A DNA stretch of 40,304 bases from an uncultured Thiodictyon sp. (GTDB taxonomy: Bacteria > Pseudomonadota > Gammaproteobacteria > Chromatiales > Chromatiaceae): assembly GCA_903837595.1 (NCBI GenBank), contig CAILVI010000306.1:1-40304 (forward strand), given 5' to 3'. The translations under genes were made by a program, and so were the position numbers. The notes below the pieces were generated by a model. The model did no database searches, was not told the DNA's origin, and worked only from the letters and a program-made list of their open reading frames with translations. Position 1 is the first letter of the stretch, and every line of letters begins with the position of its first letter. This document shows positions 22,656-39,301 of the stretch, in pieces.

Positions 22656-24098
22656 TCAACCGGTCGCGTCGGCCGCTACCTTGGCCTCGTCCTCCAGACC
22701 ATAACGACCCAGTTTCACATAGAGGCTCTGGCGGCTCAGGCCGAGCAGTTCGGCAGCGGCGGTCCGGTTGCCGCCGGTGAGGTCCAGCGCGGCCTCGATG
22801 TAGCGGTGCTCAACCACGGCAACCGTCTCGTCCACCAGCTTGCGCAGGGTCGTCTTGCCGATCTGCCGGGTAAGTGACTCCATCACGCCGTCGATACCCG
22901 GCCCCTGGTCACCGGCGGCGAGCCGCCGGCTCACATCGCGGATGAAGACACCGATGGTGCCGCCTTGTTTGCCGCCGCGGCCGGCGGCGGAGATCTCGGC
23001 CTGGACCTCGGTGCCGAGTGCGCCGTGCAGCACGGTGGAGAAGAGCCGCACCGCCCCCAATCGGACCACGTTGGCCAGCAGCACCGTCAGGTCCGCCCCC
23101 GGCCGGCCCAACCAGCGCCCCAGGGGCTCGCCCAATACGGCCGTCTCCGAGCCGAGCTGCACCTGCTCCAGGAAGGCGCGGTTGGCGCGCAGGATGGTGC
23201 CTTCGTGGTTGATGACCACGAAGCCGTCCGGCCCGCCCTCGATCAGGTCCTCAATGCGCACCGGATCGGCCAACTCGGCCAGCGTCTGCTGCGCCACCAC
23301 CGGGGTCAACTGGACCAACAAGACCTCCTCTTGGGCGCAACTCACCAAGGAGGCGTGCACCAGCCACGGCGTCTGGGCGGGACCCAGGCGGAACAGGACA
23401 CCGGGGGCCTTGCCGCGCTCGCGGATGCGCCGCAGCATCTCATCGAAGAGGTCGCGCTCCCCGGCCACCAGTGCGTCCGGGAAACGCAGGTCCACGGCGC
23501 CCTTGACGTGGGTCGCCGTCATCCCGAGGGCCTGGGCCGCCGCGGGGTTCAGGTCGACGATGCGCAGGTTGGCGGCACGCAGCAGCAGGACCGCGTCGCG
23601 CGAGGAATTGAACAACAGACGGTAGCGGGTTTCGACCTCGCGCAGCTTCCAGTAGTCCCGCTCCATGGCCTGCTGGGCCTCGACCAGACGGGACTGTAAC
23701 TCGGCCACCGCGCGCAGGTTCTTGCCGACGGCGAGGAACCCGGTGTGGCCGCCGAGCAGGACCGTGGTGTATTCGACCGGGAGTTGCAGCCCGCTGGGGA
23801 AGTGCTGGGTGACGTTGCGAAAGGCGCAGACACCGGTGCCGCGGGCATACTCCAGCATGCGCCGCAGACCATCGCCGTCGGACTCGCTGACCGTGTCCGC
23901 CCATGCTGTTCCGATCCAGTCTGCCACACCCTCGGCGGCGAACAGGTTGGACAGGGTCGCATCGCGGATGATGCCCTCGGTGTCGAGGACCAGCATCACA
24001 TCCGGCAGGGCCGGATTTTCGGTGCGCGCCAGCGCCGCAGCTGACGCATTGGTCAGCCGGTAATTCCGCGTCGGGGGCGGGGATAAGACAACATCCAT
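22656..24098 (-). CDS. ppsR: Photosynthesis repressor PpsR/CrtJ
   Basis: 480 residues, usual length. An N-terminal PAS-like domain (LPDVMLVLDTEGIIRDATLSN) is followed by a helical linker with a coiled-coil stretch (LQSRLVEAQQAMERDYWKLRE), two more PAS domains (AVLLLRAANLRIVDLNPAAA; EGGPDGFVVINHEGTILRAN) and a C-terminal Fis-type helix-turn-helix (IEAALDLTGGNRTAAAELL, SRQSLYVKLGRYG). PpsR represses bch, crt and puc genes by binding TGT-N12-ACA. Such sites are present in front of bchG and bchI here. The residue just before the HTH, where CrtJ/PpsR proteins have a redox-active Cys as I recall, is Tyr433. The gene follows bchG-bchP on the same strand. Confidence 0.95.
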   Translation of the reverse strand: MDVVLSPPPTRNYRLTNASAAALARTENPALPDVMLVLDTEGIIRDATLSNLFAAEGVADWIGTAWADTVSESDGDGLRRMLEYARGTGVCAFRNVTQHFPSGLQLPVEYTTVLLGGHTGFLAVGKNLRAVAELQSRLVEAQQAMERDYWKLREVETRYRLLFNSSRDAVLLLRAANLRIVDLNPAAAQALGMTATHVKGAVDLRFPDALVAGERDLFDEMLRRIRERGKAPGVLFRLGPAQTPWLVHASLVSCAQEEVLLVQLTPVVAQQTLAELADPVRIEDLIEGGPDGFVVINHEGTILRANRAFLEQVQLGSETAVLGEPLGRWLGRPGADLTVLLANVVRLGAVRLFSTVLHGALGTEVQAEISAAGRGGKQGGTIGVFIRDVSRRLAAGDQGPGIDGVMESLTRQIGKTTLRKLVDETVAVVEHRYIEAALDLTGGNRTAAAELLGLSRQSLYVKLGRYGLEDEAKVAADATG

Positions 24099-24479: not shown

Positions 24480-25680
24480 TCATTTCGCCGAGACGATCCC
24501 GAACAGGTGCCCGAGGTCTTTGAAGAAGATCTTCAGATGGGCACCCGGCTGGGACTTGACAAGGCGCTTGTTCATGTACGCCTCCCAGGTCAGCCGCTGG
24601 ACGTCCGGGTCAGCGCACATCTTCACGAAGCGCTCGCGCCGCTTGTCGCTGCAATACCAGAAGCGCTGCATGATCCCCAGGATCCAGAAGACCCGCCCGT
24701 GCGCCTTCATGAAGCCCTTGCGGGCCAATTTGAGACTGCTCACCTTCCCGGTGGTGCAGAAGGCCTCGGCGGCCTCGGCGGCGTAACGCCCACCGGCCAG
24801 GGCATAGTAGATGCCTTCACCGGAGGCCGGCGCGACCACGCCGGCGGCATCGCCCGCCAGGACCACGTTGCGCCCGTCGTCCCAGCAATCAAGGGGGCGC
24901 AGCGGGATGGGGGCACCCTCGCGGCGCAGCGTCTCGGCATGCTCGAGCCCCGCCGCCTTGCGCAGCTCACGGGTGGCCTCGCGCAGTGAAAAACCCGCAA
25001 CCTCAGTGCCGACCCCGACACTGGTGGTGTCGCCATGGGGGAAGACCCAGCCATAGAAGTCAGGCGAGATCTTGCCCTGGTAATAGACATCGCAGCGGTC
25101 GGCCTGAAAACCGTTCTCACCATCCTTGGGGGAGCGCACGATCTCGTGATAGGCGCTGACACAGGGCATCTTGTCCGCCCCCGGGACGCACTGGCGCGCC
25201 ACCCGGGAACGGGCGCCGTCGGCACCGATCACACAGCGGGCACGGGCCTCGCGGACCAGCGGCTTGCCGACGCCCGTCTCGACCTCATAGCGCACGATGA
25301 CCTGACCGTCGTCGGTACGGACCAGTTCGGTGAAGGCCCCGGTGCGGCGCACCGCACCGCTCTGGGCCGCGCGCGCGCAGCCACTCGTCGAAGACGTCGC
25401 GCTTGACCATGCCGACGAAGCCGTTCTCCACGGGCATATCCACCGCCCGATCGGAGGGCGAGATCATCCGGGCAGAGTGGATATGGGCACACAGCAGGTG
25501 CTCCGGGAGGTCGAACTCACGCATGGCCTGGGGAGGGATAGCCCCGCCACACGGCTTGATGCGGCCGGCCTTGTCGAGCAACATCACCGAGCGGCCGGCG
25601 CGGGCCAGATCGTTCGCGGCCGTTGCACCGGCAGGGCCGCCGCCCACCACCACCACATCGAAGTTCTCGGTCTGGTTCAT
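24480..25680 (-). pseudogene. bchP: Geranylgeranyl reductase BchP, frameshifted
   Basis: BchP reduces the geranylgeranyl tail of bacteriochlorophyll to phytyl at the membrane using FAD and NADPH. The N-terminal part from ATG 25680 has the FAD motif VVVGGGPAGATAANDL and CGGAIPP. The C-terminal part has GADGARSR, GWVFPHGDTTSVGVG and VVLAGDAAGVVAPASGEGI, all family hallmarks. They lie in different frames: the first continues past WLRAR as GPERCGAPH and ends wrongly, while the second covers AAQSGAVRRTG onward. Restoring one CG in the tract at 25368-25378 gives WLRARAAQSGAVRRTG and a 400-residue protein of normal length. Either an assembly error or a real dinucleotide contraction. It is downstream of bchG by 112 bp. 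Confidence 0.9.
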
Positions 25681-25693
25681 TCGTCTCGTCCTG

Positions 25694-25717
25694 CTCAAAT
25701 CGCTATCGCGATTTGAG
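25694..25717. promoter_or_regulatory. Perfect palindrome in the bchP leader
   Basis: Arms CTCAAATCGC (25694-25703) and GCGATTTGAG (25708-25717) flank TATC, a perfect 10-bp stem with a 4-nt loop, 14 bp upstream of the bchP ATG. It may be an operator for an unknown protein, an mRNA processing or stability hairpin, or a weak attenuator between bchG and bchP. Confidence 0.6.
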
Positions 25718-25792
25718 ATATTTAAAATGGAATTAATGAAATCAACGCGATTGCGCGGAGCTGGCGCGCTGCGTCGGCAATCTGCAAGCAAG

Positions 25793-26701
25793 TCACAGGG
25801 CGATCGTCCGCACCGCGAAGGCACTGATCATCATACCGGTCACATAGACGCTGACGCCGATCGCGCTGAGCCAGAGGGCGCGCCCGATCGGGTCGCCGAG
25901 GAACCGGACCATCATCCCGACCTGGATGGCCACCACCAGCGCGACGGCGACCGCGTGCAGCGGGCGCCCCCAGCCGATCAGCAGCCCCACCACCACGAAC
26001 TGGGGCAGGGCCATGAAGAGGCAGGCGGCCCAAGCGGCACCCTGGACCCCGAGTTGCACCGGCAGCGAACGCACGCCCATCTGCTGGTCGCCCTCGATTG
26101 CCTTGAAATCGTTCAGCGTCAGGATGCCGTGGGCGCCCAGACCATAGAGTGCGGCCAACGCCAGCACGTGCCAGTTGGGCAGTGCGCCGGAGAGCATCAC
26201 CGCGGCCCCGGTGATCCAGGCCAGACTCTCATAAGACATCCCGCAGGCCAAATTCCCCCACCAGCCATTGCCCTTGAGGCGCGCTGGCGGGGCACTGTAG
26301 GCCCAGGCCAACACCAGCCCGAGCATGGCCGACCAGAAGACCCAGGTACCCAGGGTGGCGGCCAGCAGCCCGGACAGGATGGTCCAGATGATGGCGATAT
26401 ACAGCCCCCAGCGTCCCGGGATACGCCCGGAGGGGATCGGCCGGTTAGGCTCGTTGATCGCGTCCACATGGCGGTCAAACCAGTCGTTCACCGCCTGGCT
26501 GGTGGCACACACCATGGGGCCGGCGAGGATCACCCCCAACACGAAGACCACCCAATGGTCCGGGATCGACACCCCGGAGGACACGACGCCACAGGCGAAG
26601 GCCCACATGGGGGGAAACCACGTGATGGGCTTAAGGAGTTCGAGTACGGCCGCGGGCTTGGGATAGCTGGCGGCGGCCAAGGGGGGCGCGGAGTCATTCA
26701 T
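25793..26701 (-). CDS. bchG: Bacteriochlorophyll synthase BchG
   Basis: 302 residues, a UbiA-family polyprenyltransferase with about nine membrane helices. The substrate-binding motif NDWFDRHVDAINEPNRPIPS (residues ~64-83) contains the Asp-rich N-D-x-x-D-x-x-x-D signature. BchG esterifies bacteriochlorophyllide with geranylgeranyl-PP in the cytoplasmic membrane; BchP then reduces the tail, matching the gene order. The start ATG 26701 is fixed by an excellent promoter ending 8 nt before it, which leaves almost no 5' leader. A PpsR operator covers the -35. Confidence 0.97.
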   Translation of the reverse strand: MNDSAPPLAAASYPKPAAVLELLKPITWFPPMWAFACGVVSSGVSIPDHWVVFVLGVILAGPMVCATSQAVNDWFDRHVDAINEPNRPIPSGRIPGRWGLYIAIIWTILSGLLAATLGTWVFWSAMLGLVLAWAYSAPPARLKGNGWWGNLACGMSYESLAWITGAAVMLSGALPNWHVLALAALYGLGAHGILTLNDFKAIEGDQQMGVRSLPVQLGVQGAAWAACLFMALPQFVVVGLLIGWGRPLHAVAVALVVAIQVGMMVRFLGDPIGRALWLSAIGVSVYVTGMMISAFAVRTIAL

Positions 26702-26709
26702 GGGTGCAA

Positions 26710-26736
26710 ATTATAGCTGACAGTAGACGTTGTCAA
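26710..26736 (-). promoter_or_regulatory. bchG promoter, near-leaderless
   Basis: On the minus strand TTGACA (26736-26731) and TATAAT (26715-26710) are both perfect sigma-70 hexamers with a 15-bp spacer. TATAAT is followed by 8 nt and then the ATG. The predicted transcript start falls about 0-3 nt before the ATG, so translation would be leaderless or nearly so. No ribosome-binding site is present. Confidence 0.7.
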
Positions 26737-26748
26737 CCAGACTTGACA
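26731..26748. promoter_or_regulatory. PpsR operator at bchG
   Basis: TGTCAACCAGACTTGACA fits TGT-N12-ACA exactly and has perfect 6-bp half-sites. It overlaps the -35 of the bchG promoter, so bound PpsR should block RNA polymerase. PpsR itself is encoded 2.6 kb downstream in the same orientation. Confidence 0.85.
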
Positions 26749-34943: not shown

Positions 34944-35966
34944 ATGTTGAAGCGGCTGGTGCAGGTCTTTGGGGTTCTTCTGGTGCTGGCGATCGGGGCG
35001 GCGGCCATCGTGCCCCTGCTGATGGTCCCCGCGGGGTCGGTCCAACCGCAGGGCACCGCCCGGGCCGCGGCGACCCCGGACAGCCGGTTCCTGACCATCC
35101 CCTTCCCGGGAACCCGGGGCCTCGAGGTCCATTATCTCGAACGACCGGCGACAGCGCCGGCTGGCGACCACGCCTTCCTGCTGCTGCACGGTTTCACCTT
35201 CAACAGCTTCACCTGGGGGGCGGTGCTGGACCCCTTCGCCAGGCTCGGGCGGACGGTCGCCTATGACCAGCCCCCTTATGGACTCAGCGCCAAGCCGCTG
35301 CCGAGCGACTGGAGCGGCGCCAACCCCTATGCCAAGGAGTCGGCCATCGCCCAGGTCGGGGCCGTCATGCAGGGGCTGGGGCTCGGGCACGCCATCCTGG
35401 TCGGCAACTCCTCGGGCGGCACCCTGGCCCTGGAGGCGGCGTTGGCCTATCCGGAGCGGGTGACCGGCCTGATCCTGGTCGCCCCCTGGGTCTATGCCCA
35501 ACGCCCGATCATCCCGGCCGCAGTGGCGCAACTGCCCCAGTTGCAGCGGCTCAGCCTCTTCATCGCCCGAAAGCTGGGGGACCCGACCCTGCTCGAATAT
35601 TCGTATCAGGACCCGTCGCGCCTCACGGCGGCCCGCCGGGCCCTGGCCATCATCCATACCCGCGTGGCGAACTGGGACCTGGGCTGGGGGGCACTGCTCG
35701 ACCGCTCGCTCTCAAGCACCGTGGACATCAGCGACCGACTCAGCCAAGTCCGGGTGCCGGTGCTGCTGATCACCTCCGATCAGGACAAGCTGGTGAAGCC
35801 GGAGGATACGCGGCGCGTTGCCGCCGCCCTGCCCCACGCGACCCTCAAAGTACTGCCGGGCTGCGGCCATGCCCCCCAGGAGGAATGCCCCCAGGCGTTC
35901 ATGGCCGCGGTGACGGACTGGCTGCAATCCCCTGCGGCGCAGGTGACTCCCGGCGCGCACCCTTGA
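34944..35966 (+). CDS. Alpha/beta hydrolase with N-terminal membrane anchor
   Basis: 340 residues. The N-terminal helix (LVQVFGVLLVLAIGAAAIVPLL) is an export signal or anchor. The fold has HGFTFNSFTWG, nucleophile Ser in VGNSSGGTLALEA, the acid Asp in ITSDQDKLV and His in GCGHAPQEECP, a complete catalytic triad. Substrate unknown. It is divergent from bciB, with GAGGGG before ATG 34944, and ends 5 bp before the stop of the convergent 56-aa gene. The position between bciB and bchI suggests a pigment or membrane role, but BchO is a separate gene here (39420). Confidence 0.85.
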   Translation: MLKRLVQVFGVLLVLAIGAAAIVPLLMVPAGSVQPQGTARAAATPDSRFLTIPFPGTRGLEVHYLERPATAPAGDHAFLLLHGFTFNSFTWGAVLDPFARLGRTVAYDQPPYGLSAKPLPSDWSGANPYAKESAIAQVGAVMQGLGLGHAILVGNSSGGTLALEAALAYPERVTGLILVAPWVYAQRPIIPAAVAQLPQLQRLSLFIARKLGDPTLLEYSYQDPSRLTAARRALAIIHTRVANWDLGWGALLDRSLSSTVDISDRLSQVRVPVLLITSDQDKLVKPEDTRRVAAALPHATLKVLPGCGHAPQEECPQAFMAAVTDWLQSPAAQVTPGAHP

Positions 35967-35971
35967 GGAGT

Positions 35972-36142
35972 TCAGCCCACCGGGGCCAGGAAGGACACCA
36001 GGGCCTGAGCCAGGACGGCGAGCACGGTCAGCCCCACCACGGAGCAGATCGTGCAGGTGATCAGGAAGGACTTGAGATCGAGCGGGGCGTTGTCGTGCGC
36101 AACATCGGCGGCGAGTACATCTACCTGCGGGGGCTGAGACAT
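35972..36142 (-). CDS. 56-aa single-helix membrane protein, PpsR-controlled
   Basis: 56 residues: a polar acidic N-terminus (QPPQVDVLAADVAHDNAP), then one membrane helix FLITCTICSVVGLTVLAVLA and a short hydrophobic tail ending APVG. GGAG lies seven bases before ATG 36142. The gene is divergent from bchI and its promoter region contains two PpsR operators, one over the predicted -35 and one just past the -10. The size and topology resemble light-harvesting and reaction-centre accessory polypeptides (LH1/LH2 subunits, PufX-like), but no LH His ligand is visible in the helix, so it is not a standard LH subunit. I do not recognise the family. Confidence 0.75.
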   Translation of the reverse strand: MSQPPQVDVLAADVAHDNAPLDLKSFLITCTICSVVGLTVLAVLAQALVSFLAPVG

Positions 36143-36236
36143 CGATTGACTCCGGTGGTTGATCGTGGGCCAGCCATGGCCCTGGACTAAGACGTTGGAG
36201 GTTGCGCGGCGGCAGGTCGACGAGGTGTCGTCCACC

Positions 36237-36254
36237 TGTCTCGCGAGATTTACA
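36237..36254. promoter_or_regulatory. PpsR operator 1 at bchI
   Basis: TGTCTCGCGAGATTTACA fits TGT-N12-ACA. It lies 8 bp from operator 2, the spacing used for cooperative CrtJ/PpsR binding. It adjoins the predicted -10 of the 56-aa gene. Confidence 0.75.
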
Positions 36255-36281
36255 GTATAGTGTGTCACGCTACCTTGACAC
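36254..36281 (-). promoter_or_regulatory. Candidate promoter of the 56-aa gene
   Basis: On the minus strand GTGTCA (36281-36276) and TATACT (36259-36254) are separated by 16 bp. The -35 lies in PpsR operator 2. The predicted leader is about 105 nt. A matching plus-strand promoter for bchI is less clear, although TTGACA occurs at 36275-36280. Confidence 0.5.
36263..36280. promoter_or_regulatory. PpsR operator 2 at bchI
   Basis: TGTCACGCTACCTTGACA fits TGT-N12-ACA, with symmetric flanks extending it to TGTGTCA...TGACACA. It lies 103 bp before the bchI ATG. Confidence 0.85.
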
Positions 36282-36383
36282 ACCCCCTTTCGACAGGTTT
36301 TCGGGTCCCATCGCGACGCGCGTCCGGTTACCATGGGCGCCCTTTCAACCCGCGTACCTGACACAGCAGATCGAGACCCTTAT

Positions 36384-37415
36384 ATGCCCGTCCCATTTCC
36401 GTTCTCCGCCATCGTCGGTCAGGAAGAGATGAAGCTCGCGCTCCTGATCGGGGCCGTCGACTCCCGCATCGGCGGGGTCCTGGTCTTCGGCGACCGCGGC
36501 ACCGGCAAGTCCACTGCCATCCGCGCCTTGGCGGCGCTGCTGCCCAAGATGAAGGTCGTTGCGGACTGCCGCTACGGCTGTGATCCGGATGCCGAGGTGG
36601 GCGTGTTGTGCGCCGAGTGCCGCGGCAGCCGCAGCGAGACCACCCCGTTCAAGACCAAGCAGGTGCCGGTGCCGGTGGTGGACCTGCCCCTGGGTGCTAC
36701 CGAGGACCGGGTGATCGGCGCCCTGGACCTGGAGATGGCCCTGACCCGCGGCGAGAAGGCCTTCGAGCCCGGCCTGCTGGCCCGCGCCCACCGCGGCTTC
36801 CTCTATATCGACGAGGTCAACCTGCTGGAAGACCACTTGGTGGACGCCCTGCTGGACGTGGCCGCCTCCGGTGAGAATCTGGTGGAGCGCGAGGGCCTCT
36901 CGGTCCGCCACCCGGCGCGCTTCGTCCTGATCGGCTCCGGCAACCCGGAGGAAGGCGAACTGCGGCCCCAGTTGCTGGACCGCTTCGGCCTCTCCGTGGA
37001 GGTGCGCACCCCGCAGGACCTGCAGACCCGCGTCCAGGTGGTGCGGCTGCGCGACGAGTACGAGCGCGACCCTGCTGCCTTCACCGAGAAGTGGAAGCGC
37101 AAGGACGCCAAGGTGCGCAAACGCATCACCGACGCCCAGGCCCTGCTGCCTGAGATCGAGGTGAACGACCAGGCACTGGAACAGGCCGCGCGCCTGTGCA
37201 TGGCGCTCGGCACCGATGGCCTGCGGGGTGAACTGACCCTGATCCGCGCCTGCCGCGCCCTGGCCGCCCTGGAAGGCGACAAATCGGTCGAGGTCAAGCA
37301 CCTGCGCCGGCTCGCCCCCCCTGCGCTACGCCACCGGCTGCGGCGCGACCCGCTGGACGAGTCGGGCTCCACCGCCCGGGTCGACCGCGTGGTGCAGGAA
37401 CTTTTCCCCGCATAA
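36384..37415 (+). CDS. bchI: Magnesium chelatase ATPase subunit BchI
   Basis: 343 residues, AAA+ family. Walker A is GDRGTGKST, Walker B LYIDEVNLL, followed by sensor GSGNPEEGELRPQLLDRFG with the Arg finger. BchI drives insertion of Mg2+ into protoporphyrin IX with BchD and BchH; BchH is not in this window. ATG 36384 (MPVPFPFSAIVGQEEMKLAL) matches the conserved BchI start; an upstream in-frame ATG at 36333 is rejected. The stop overlaps the bchD start (TAATG). Probable PpsR control through the two upstream operators. Confidence 0.98.
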   Translation: MPVPFPFSAIVGQEEMKLALLIGAVDSRIGGVLVFGDRGTGKSTAIRALAALLPKMKVVADCRYGCDPDAEVGVLCAECRGSRSETTPFKTKQVPVPVVDLPLGATEDRVIGALDLEMALTRGEKAFEPGLLARAHRGFLYIDEVNLLEDHLVDALLDVAASGENLVEREGLSVRHPARFVLIGSGNPEEGELRPQLLDRFGLSVEVRTPQDLQTRVQVVRLRDEYERDPAAFTEKWKRKDAKVRKRITDAQALLPEIEVNDQALEQAARLCMALGTDGLRGELTLIRACRALAALEGDKSVEVKHLRRLAPPALRHRLRRDPLDESGSTARVDRVVQELFPA

Positions 37416-39301
37416 TGGCCGGCATGAGCGCACCCCCGGCCAATCCACTGGCGAAGAACCCCATGGGCGGCGACGCCCCCAAACCGCCGCCGGCGCCGCC
37501 GCGCTATCACCCGTGGGACGACGTGGCACTGGTCGCCACCCTGTTCGCGGTGGACCCGTCCGGGGTGGGGGGCGTCTGTCTGCGCGCCCTGCCCGGCCCG
37601 GTGCGCGACCAATGGCTCGCCGACACCCGCGAACTGCTCCCGCCCGACATGCACCGGCGCAAGATCCCGCTGCATGTCACCGACGGGCGCCTGCTGGGTG
37701 GACTGGACCTGACCGCCACGCTGCGCGCCGGGCGCCCGGTGGCCGAGCACGGGCTGCTGGCCGAGGCCCACGGCGGCGTGGTGGAACTGGCCATGGCCGA
37801 GCGGGTGCGGGGTTCGCCCGTGTCCTATCTGTGCGCCGCACTGGATACCAATGAGGTGGTGCTGGAGCGCGATGGGATCGCGCTGCGCTCCCCGGCCCGC
37901 CTGGGTGTCATCGCGCTCGACGAGGGCAGCAACGAGGATGAGCAGGTGGCGGATGCACTGCTCGACCGCCTCGCCTTCCTGGTGGACCTGAGCCCGATCG
38001 GCGTCCGCGACATGGGCGAACTGCCCTATAGCGCGGCTGATATCAGCGCCGCCCGCGACCGGCTACCCGCGGTCACCATCAGCGAGGCGCAGGTCGGCGC
38101 CATCTGCGAGACCGCGCTGGCGCTCGGCATCTATTCGCTGCGCGCTGCACTGCACGCGGTGCACGCCGCGCGCATCGCCGCCGCCCTGGACGGTGACCCG
38201 GAGGTCACGGACGGCCAGGTCAACCTCGCCGCCCGGCTGGTGATGGCCCCGCGGGCGACCCAGATGCCCTATGTCCCACCGGAGCAGGAGCAGGAGCCCC
38301 CGCCGCCGGAACCGCCCCCGCCGGACCAGGACCAGGGCGAGTCCGATCAGAACCAGGAAGAGCGCAAGGACCCCCTGGCCGACCAGGTGCTGGAGGCGGC
38401 CAAGGCGGCCATCCCCCAGGACCTGCTGGACCGCCTGCGGCTCGGCCAATTGCGCCGCGCCAAGGTGCGCAGCACCGGCAAGTCCGGGCAGGTCCAACAG
38501 GCCAACATGCGCGGGCGCCCCGCTGGCGTGCGCCGCGGCGACTTGCGCCCCGGGGACCGGCTGAACCTGATCGAGACCCTGCGCGCCGCCGCCCCCTGGC
38601 AGCGGGTACGCCGGGCCGAGCGCGAGCGCGGCCCGGCGGAGACACCGGTCAAGCGCAAGGGCGGCAAGGCGGTGGCGGTGGTCATGCCACGGGTGGAGGT
38701 GCGCAAGGACGACTTCCGCATCCAGAAGTACAAGCACCGCTCCGAGACCACCGCGATCTTCGTCGTCGACGCCTCGGGCTCATCGGCCCTGCACCGACTG
38801 GGCGAGGCCAAGGGCGCGGTTGAACTCCTGTTGGCGGACTGCTATGTGCGCCGCGACCGGGTCGCCCTGGTCGCCTTCCGTGGGAAAGAGGCCGAGCTCC
38901 TACTCCCGCCGACCCGCTCACTGGTGCGCACCAAGCGCTGCCTGGCGGACCTGCCCGGCGGCGGCGGCACCCCGCTCGCCTCCGGAATCGAGACCGGGCT
39001 CGCGCTGGCCGACGCGGTCAAGCGCCGGGGCGGCACCCCGCTCCTGGTCATCCTCACGGACGGGCGAGCCAACGTGGCCCGCAACGGCCAGGGCGGGCGC
39101 CCCCAGGCGACCGAGGAGGCACTGACCGTCTCCCGGCTGGTGCGTGCCTCGGGCGTGGCGGCGATGGTGGTCGACACCTCCAACCACCCGCACCCGCAGG
39201 CGAAGGCACTGGCAGAGGCGATGGACGCCACCTACATGCCCCTGCCCCACGCCGATGCCGGCCGGCTCAATGCGGCGGTGAAGGCCAAGGCGGGGTTATG
39301 A
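37415..39301 (+). CDS. bchD: Magnesium chelatase subunit BchD
   Basis: 628 residues. The N-terminal half is a degenerate AAA+ domain (WDDVALVATLFAVDP, AHGGVVELAMAERV). A Pro/Glu/Gln-rich acidic linker (EQEQEPPPPEPPPPDQDQ) follows at residues ~290-310, then a C-terminal von Willebrand A domain with the MIDAS motif DASGSSALHR and VILTDGRANVAR. BchD forms the double-ring chelatase motor with BchI. The ATG overlaps the bchI stop; an in-frame ATG three codons later is also possible. A perfect hairpin lies 8 bp past the stop. Confidence 0.97.
   Translation: MAGMSAPPANPLAKNPMGGDAPKPPPAPPRYHPWDDVALVATLFAVDPSGVGGVCLRALPGPVRDQWLADTRELLPPDMHRRKIPLHVTDGRLLGGLDLTATLRAGRPVAEHGLLAEAHGGVVELAMAERVRGSPVSYLCAALDTNEVVLERDGIALRSPARLGVIALDEGSNEDEQVADALLDRLAFLVDLSPIGVRDMGELPYSAADISAARDRLPAVTISEAQVGAICETALALGIYSLRAALHAVHAARIAAALDGDPEVTDGQVNLAARLVMAPRATQMPYVPPEQEQEPPPPEPPPPDQDQGESDQNQEERKDPLADQVLEAAKAAIPQDLLDRLRLGQLRRAKVRSTGKSGQVQQANMRGRPAGVRRGDLRPGDRLNLIETLRAAAPWQRVRRAERERGPAETPVKRKGGKAVAVVMPRVEVRKDDFRIQKYKHRSETTAIFVVDASGSSALHRLGEAKGAVELLLADCYVRRDRVALVAFRGKEAELLLPPTRSLVRTKRCLADLPGGGGTPLASGIETGLALADAVKRRGGTPLLVILTDGRANVARNGQGGRPQATEEALTVSRLVRASGVAAMVVDTSNHPHPQAKALAEAMDATYMPLPHADAGRLNAAVKAKAGL

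Follow-up and report, generated by a model that had tools for sequence, protein, structure and literature searches.

We analysed a 40,304-nucleotide stretch of DNA from an uncultured Thiodictyon sp. (hereafter the window), in which a small open reading frame, ORF56, lies between an alpha/beta hydrolase gene and the Mg-chelatase genes (Table 1). ORF56 begins with an ATG at 36142, ends with a TGA at 35972 and encodes a product of 56 aa, MSQPPQVDVLAADVAHDNAPLDLKSFLITCTICSVVGLTVLAVLAQALVSFLAPVG. On the plus strand, bchI is followed by bchD and then by bchO. The hydrolase gene converges with ORF56, their stop codons being 5 bp apart, and scored below the cut-off of the BchO model. No terminator-like match was found in 35850-36450.

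Table 1. Features of the ORF56 locus and related genes of the window
Feature	Position	Strand	Remarks
bchG	25793-26701	minus	TIGR01476 above cut-off
ppsR/crtJ	22656..24098	minus	Predicted repressor of the operators; TIGR02040, 468 bits (cut-off 275.4)
Alpha/beta hydrolase gene	34944..35966	plus	Pfam Abhydrolase_1; convergent with ORF56; putative start codon
ORF56	35972..36142	minus	56-aa single-helix membrane protein; helix about residues 23-52; residue 46 is Gln
Shine-Dalgarno-like GGAG	36150..36153	minus	7 nt 5' of the ORF56 ATG; read from the sequence
PpsR/CrtJ-type operator TGTCTCGCGAGATTTACA	36237..36254		TGTN12ACA; site at the same place in 7/7 orthologous loci
Promoter-like match for ORF56	36254..36281	minus	-35 GTGTCA (36281-36276), 16 bp, -10 TATACT (36259-36254); consensus match only
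PpsR/CrtJ-type operator TGTCACGCTACCTTGACA	36263..36280		TGTN12ACA; present in 7/7 orthologous loci
bchI, Mg-chelatase ATPase subunit	36384..37415	plus	TIGR02030 above cut-off; divergent from ORF56
bchD, Mg-chelatase subunit D	37415..39301	plus	NF009943 and TIGR02031 above cut-off

An earlier note on this DNA, made from the letters and their reading frames, had described a single-helix polypeptide with a good ribosome site, and both parts of that description hold. The GGAG precedes the start codon in all seven orthologues that we found, and the AlphaFold2 model (mean pLDDT 73.5) consists of one confident helix, with block means of 81, 95 and 89 across residues 21-50, a low-confidence N-terminus carrying a second short helix (5-17) and a C-terminus of four residues beyond the modelled helix. 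Twenty positions, S34, G37, A42, A45, L48 and P54 among them, are invariant among six distinct sequences. The note had also found no obvious bacteriochlorophyll-ligand His in the helix. This is true of the window protein and of five of the seven orthologues in all, which have Gln (CAG in the window) at residue 46; it fails for the remaining two, from Lamprocystis purpurea and Chromatiaceae bacterium ppb02, which have His (CAT) there, in the register of the ligand of light-harvesting (LH) beta chains.

Orthologues of ORF56 are present in seven of eight Thiodictyon/Lamprocystis genomes, that of the window included. The carriers include two Thiodictyon MAGs, Ca. T. intracellulare, T. syntrophicum Cad16T (on plasmid pTs485), L. 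purpurea DSM 4197 and ppb02. With the window protein alone as query, the six further genomes matched at E values of 8.5e-22 to 2.6e-9; a six-row profile, which includes the matched orthologue sequences themselves, gave 9e-35 to 9e-32 in five Thiodictyon and about 2e-30 in two Lamprocystis-type genomes. All seven orthologues are divergent from bchI across a gap of 215-248 bp, and have the same length and no indels. bchI was found in exactly the seven genomes with ORF56, as were LHC matches, and the eighth (G006) yielded no bchI, LHC match or ORF56, nor a tandem operator pair of the exact 8-bp pattern described below. Five ORF56 loci, all of the Thiodictyon/Lamprocystis group, came out of a pattern scan that covered 84,980 species genomes.

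Selection on the reading frame was analysed in six sequences. Mean dN/dS was 0.25 for the helix and 0.70 for the N-terminus (15 and 14 sequence pairs), values that rest on 24 or 32 codons per sequence; over the whole frame pairwise dN/dS ranged from 0 to 1.17, the highest coming from one close pair with eight differences. GC3 was 0.80-0.89 in six orthologues. RefSeq also predicts the T. syntrophicum protein (WP_157818099.1, annotated only as a hypothetical protein). ORF56 is kept in Ca. T. intracellulare, whose genome, 2.9 versus 7.74 Mb, has undergone extensive gene loss with retention of photosynthesis genes (PMC8195481). The presence in every bchI-bearing genome of the genus, the lack of indels and the constrained helix mark ORF56 as a real gene.

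Outside the genus the picture was different. Among 202 other genomes of the family we found no convincing homologue (best E 0.011, residues 10-36 only), and a match in one of 369 genomes of the class (G457, E 3e-4) was judged to be due to chance; by eye, its region contains ParDE-like genes. We inspected 30 bchI loci from 42 bchI-bearing genomes of the family, comparing by eye the hydrophobic ORFs of at least 40 aa within 600 bp upstream of bchI and the long ORFs. ORF56 was present at all four loci of its own genus, and no ORF56-like ORF was seen at the 26 loci of other genera. Conservation upstream of bchI in Chromatiaceae, which the earlier note had proposed as a check, is thus found in the seven bchI-bearing genomes of the genus and not at the inspected loci beyond it, which argues for a lineage-specific accessory rather than a general part of Mg-chelatase or of LH1-RC. 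By eye, several of these 26 loci have directly upstream of bchI a gene that we take to be BciB-like.

At two loci of another genus (L020 and L025, genus g22) bchI is immediately preceded by the hydrolase gene, which reads the same way; a TGTN12ACA site precedes the hydrolase gene, and no such site separates the two genes. Given this arrangement, and since no ORF56-like ORF was seen at the 26 loci, it looks as if ORF56 and its operators had either been inserted between the hydrolase gene and bchI in this lineage or been lost elsewhere. The promoter region in Thiodictyon may have uncoupled the two genes.

The earlier note had placed between ORF56 and bchI a common control region of about 240 bp with two PpsR operators at 8-bp spacing, and promoter hexamers overlapping or adjoining them; the region bears this out on each point. 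It measures 241 bp, and its two TGTN12ACA sites are separated by the 8-bp spacer GTATAGTG; across the orthologous loci the spacer is 8 bp in five and 7 bp in L. purpurea and ppb02. Single TGTN12ACA sites are not rare (five in the window, 3.6 expected), in contrast to the tandem pair, which occurs once in the window and not at all in 100 shuffles. Counting exact 8-bp spacing only, there are four such pairs in the whole 7.8-Mb genome and none of the reversed pattern. One precedes a gene for a crtE-like prenyl synthase, with bchC after it (the synthase scores below the NCBIfam CrtE cut-off, and the adjoining bchC piece is cut by the end of the locus), and two lie 124 and 138 bp 5' of pucB-type LH beta genes. 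CrtJ sites 8 bp apart have been described for bchC (PMC6199135), which the ORF56 pair resembles in sequence pattern and spacing, differing in that it lies between bchI and the gene of a small protein; the sites of R. capsulatus bchODI-crtA are more distant, 45-500 bp apart (PMC6199135).

The promoter-like match for ORF56 agrees with the consensus at 9 of 12 positions (0.1 matches expected in shuffles) and is the only one in 35850-36450; the same scan gave none for bchI. Its -35 hexamer falls inside one operator and its -10 hexamer in the spacer, so that the promoter-like match is interleaved with both sites and a repressor bound to both would cover it. With tandem operators at a promoter-like match, in a genome that also encodes PpsR, the prediction that ORF56 shares PpsR control with bchI is supported in silico.

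We compared the ORF56 helix with those of LH beta chains. The ligand position of an LH beta chain holds bacteriochlorophyll. When residue 46 is set on this position, A42, A45, L48 and P54 fall at -4, -1, +2 and +8, and Ser or Thr at -12, where they match residues common, if not universal, among the LH betas of the family. Compared with a reference set of 31 LH betas from the family (30 of them Met-starting), the six-row ORF56 profile scored 21.8, against a maximum of 16.3 in 250 column shuffles, and masking column 46 still left 17.3; hhalign under different settings (13.9; maximum of 100 shuffles 8.6) agrees with this. The Lamprocystis sequence alone scored 22.8 (shuffles at most 17.9), above all of the 145 windows classed as 'other' (maximum 18.6), a null set of hydrophobic windows drawn from the six reading frames of each locus that are not all true proteins and that include several LH alpha chains. 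A profile of the Gln46 sequences only scored 15.8, exceeded by 3 of 250 shuffles, and the five Gln46 sequences singly scored 14.5-15.7 (window sequence 15.7); 10 of the 145 'other' windows reach at least 15.

Other searches gave a similar division. By HMM scoring, the window sequence obtained 1.7 bits, a value as high being found in 331 of 3600 shuffles and 35 of 197 windows, and the Lamprocystis sequence 8.5 bits (4 of 3600 and 8 of 197); the top eight windows were seven PufQ-like ones and Lamprocystis ORF56 itself. Among 177,635 PDB sequences the ORF56 profile had four hits at E ≤10. An ankyrin-like protein came first (0.43) and a transporter last (0.89); between them stood two LH beta chains (0.52 and 0.56), whose alignments keep the ligand register. 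Three scrambled profiles had 3, 2 and 14 hits with no LH chain among them, and none of the three hits of the Gln46-only profile was an LH chain. In phmmer, the Lamprocystis sequence found LH beta second (E 0.046), behind a collagen fusion. None of the six ORF56 orthologue sequences matched any Pfam family, PF00556 included, at E ≤10, and our own ungapped matrix scan for LH beta and LH alpha gave no significant match (lowest shuffle fraction 0.08). An origin from LH alpha was rejected (hhalign 0.8; single sequences 11-14, with HMM scores no better than those of ordinary windows).

Taken together, the resemblance of the ORF56 helix to LH beta chains is weak and suggestive. Since it comes mostly from the two His46 sequences, and since there is no Pfam match, we do not file ORF56 as an LH subunit, in agreement with the earlier note, for which it was no normal one. 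It shares with LH1/LH2 beta (PF00556) a single helix, several residues common in the ligand register, a tandem pair of PpsR-type operators before the gene, as pucB-type genes have, and, in two orthologues, the ligand His with a Trp at +6. It differs in having Gln at the ligand position in five of seven sequences, Ile or Val at position 28 instead of a second His 18 residues before the ligand, and P54 without a following Trp instead of a PW end; moreover, no alpha gene adjoins it, its neighbours being the hydrolase gene and bchI.

Divergent LH2-type genes that score weakly as LHC are clustered on contig C161 of L. purpurea and on T. syntrophicum pTs485 (L113 and L114). Their beta chains contain ...HWKHGVWSWVMIASAVHLVTWAYQPWF, their alpha chains have long tails, and some have tandem PpsR-type pairs nearby. 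As a source of ORF56, or as intermediates, these divergent LH2 betas were rejected, because by eye they do not resemble it.

A separate PufQ-like gene occurs in all seven genomes of the genus that were searched for it, upstream of the LH1 beta and alpha genes (L122-L128; for example G000:C227:10799-11017). It is probably the gene named PufQ in PMC5944118. Its product matched the LH-beta profile with a probability of 94.6% in hhalign and a score of 39.7 (maximum of 150 shuffles 20.5), along both the N-terminus and the helix and with Arg in place of both LH histidines, and two PufQ-like sequences had no Pfam match at E ≤10. To judge from this match, PufQ of this genus may be an LH-beta-derived protein, which supports the idea of reused antenna helices. 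In R. sphaeroides, PufQ acts at the branch between haem and bacteriochlorophyll through ferrochelatase, and it is encoded by the first puf gene and has a conserved C-terminal domain (PMC5725709). ORF56 is likewise a small one-helix protein with a likely accessory place in photosynthesis; in contrast to PufQ, it lies beside bchI rather than in puf and lacks the C-terminal domain, and its profile matched the PufQ-like protein of the genus weakly (score 12.0).

We favour, at a probability of roughly 40%, the reading that ORF56 genuinely serves photosynthesis as an accessory gene of the Thiodictyon/Lamprocystis lineage, whose product would be an LH-beta-like one-helix helper in pigment handling or antenna assembly. 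The computed starting points of this reading are the single helix, the conserved place, the tandem operators overlapping a promoter-like match and the strict co-occurrence with bchI and LH genes among eight genomes. Under oxygen, PpsR bound to both operators would shut off ORF56 and bchI together, and when oxygen falls both divergent genes would be made. The protein would insert with its N-terminus in, placing residue 46 towards the opposite end of the helix, at the level at which an LH beta chain holds bacteriochlorophyll. There it might transiently hold or pass on bacteriochlorophyll or a late precursor, or it might dock to pigment enzymes or to the nascent antenna; either way, pigment made through Mg-chelatase would be matched to apoprotein. 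Such a mode of action would resemble that of PufQ, the nearest known model of this role. The ligand at position 46 would be Gln, or lost, in the Thiodictyon branch, and His in the Lamprocystis branch. A bolder version, which we put forward tentatively and regard as doubtful, is that ORF56 is an LH-beta-derived antenna chain turned helper, regulated from the Mg-chelatase promoter, and that its ligand gave way to Gln in one branch but persisted in the other. The first reading of this DNA is partly supported: there remain of it a real single-helix gene, predicted PpsR control together with bchI and a protein that is not a normal LH subunit.

Other explanations have to be weighed. ORF56 could be a minor component of the LH1-RC or LH2 structure, located within the antenna ring or next to it and without a part in pigment synthesis; the gamma subunit and polypeptides of the PufX/PufY type are models for such a protein. 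A single helix of LH length, tandem operators of the class found at pucB-type genes, the LH-beta resemblance and the co-occurrence with LH genes in the genus would all be expected of it, but the place of the gene, divergent from bchI, outside puf and puc and with no adjoining gene for an alpha partner, would not, nor would the absence of the ligand His from five of seven orthologues. We consider this explanation unlikely.

Similarly improbable, in our judgement, is that ORF56 anchors Mg-chelatase (BchI/BchD) to the membrane, or modulates it, without binding pigment, its likeness to LH chains being due to chance. The divergence from bchI with a common operator pair at 7/7 loci, and the weak LH scores of the Gln46 sequences, are in its favour. 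However, the 26 bchI loci of other genera without ORF56 indicate that BchI generally does not need it, and a chance resemblance is at odds with the scrambled controls and with the His46 orthologues. In addition, with four residues past the modelled helix and a poorly conserved N-terminus, the protein would probably offer little surface to a soluble partner.

It is quite improbable that ORF56 has no function as a protein, being incidental to the promoter region or giving an antisense RNA on the convergent hydrolase gene. The close approach of the two stop codons in the window and the lack of a terminator-like match in 35850-36450 are in its favour, but the hydrolase gene is 326 bp away from ORF56 on pTs485, and the constant length and ribosome site in seven genomes without indels, the helix dN/dS, the GC3 values and the RefSeq prediction all speak for a protein. 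That ORF56 is an ordinary LH beta antenna subunit, as His46 and the A-x-x-A-H-x-L-x5-P pattern of two orthologues could suggest, is hardly credible in view of Gln46 in the other five, the missing outer His, PW end and alpha partner, and the lack of a Pfam LHC match.

If ORF56 is indeed an LH-beta-derived helper, then it and the LH-beta-like PufQ would show that purple bacteria have reused antenna helices as assistants of pigment biosynthesis, as cyanobacteria have. The cyanobacterial high-light-inducible, or one-helix, proteins are relatives of antenna proteins that aid pigment enzymes and do not harvest light; they belong to a different antenna family. In our judgement, the matching of pigment to antenna in purple bacteria is poorly known, PufQ being among the few factors studied. 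A second small, antenna-like membrane protein that apparently shares its regulation with bchI and the LH2 genes would give a direct handle on this coupling in purple sulfur bacteria, and the natural difference at the ligand position, Gln in Thiodictyon and His in Lamprocystis, allows pigment binding to be tested directly.

New here are the genus-limited conservation with perfect bchI co-occurrence among eight genomes, the rare operator class common to ORF56/bchI, puc and bchC, and, as read from the alignment, a His/Gln position in an LH-beta-like register. The published titles and abstract openings that we surveyed contained none that points to such a protein. The main text of the T. syntrophicum proteome paper (PMC6413534) mentions neither bchI, magnesium chelatase nor pTs485, and the text of a 2026 transcriptome paper (PMC13116554) mentions neither bchI nor THSYN.

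Elsewhere in the window, bchP is present on the minus strand in two overlapping frames (24480-25352 and 25285-25824), one matching positions 2-105 of TIGR02023 and the other positions 110-386, so that the gene carries a frameshift as assembled here. About 30 bp 5' of bchG, at 26731-26748, there is a single TGTN12ACA site, TGTCAACCAGACTTGACA, and bchG is a possible further target of PpsR.
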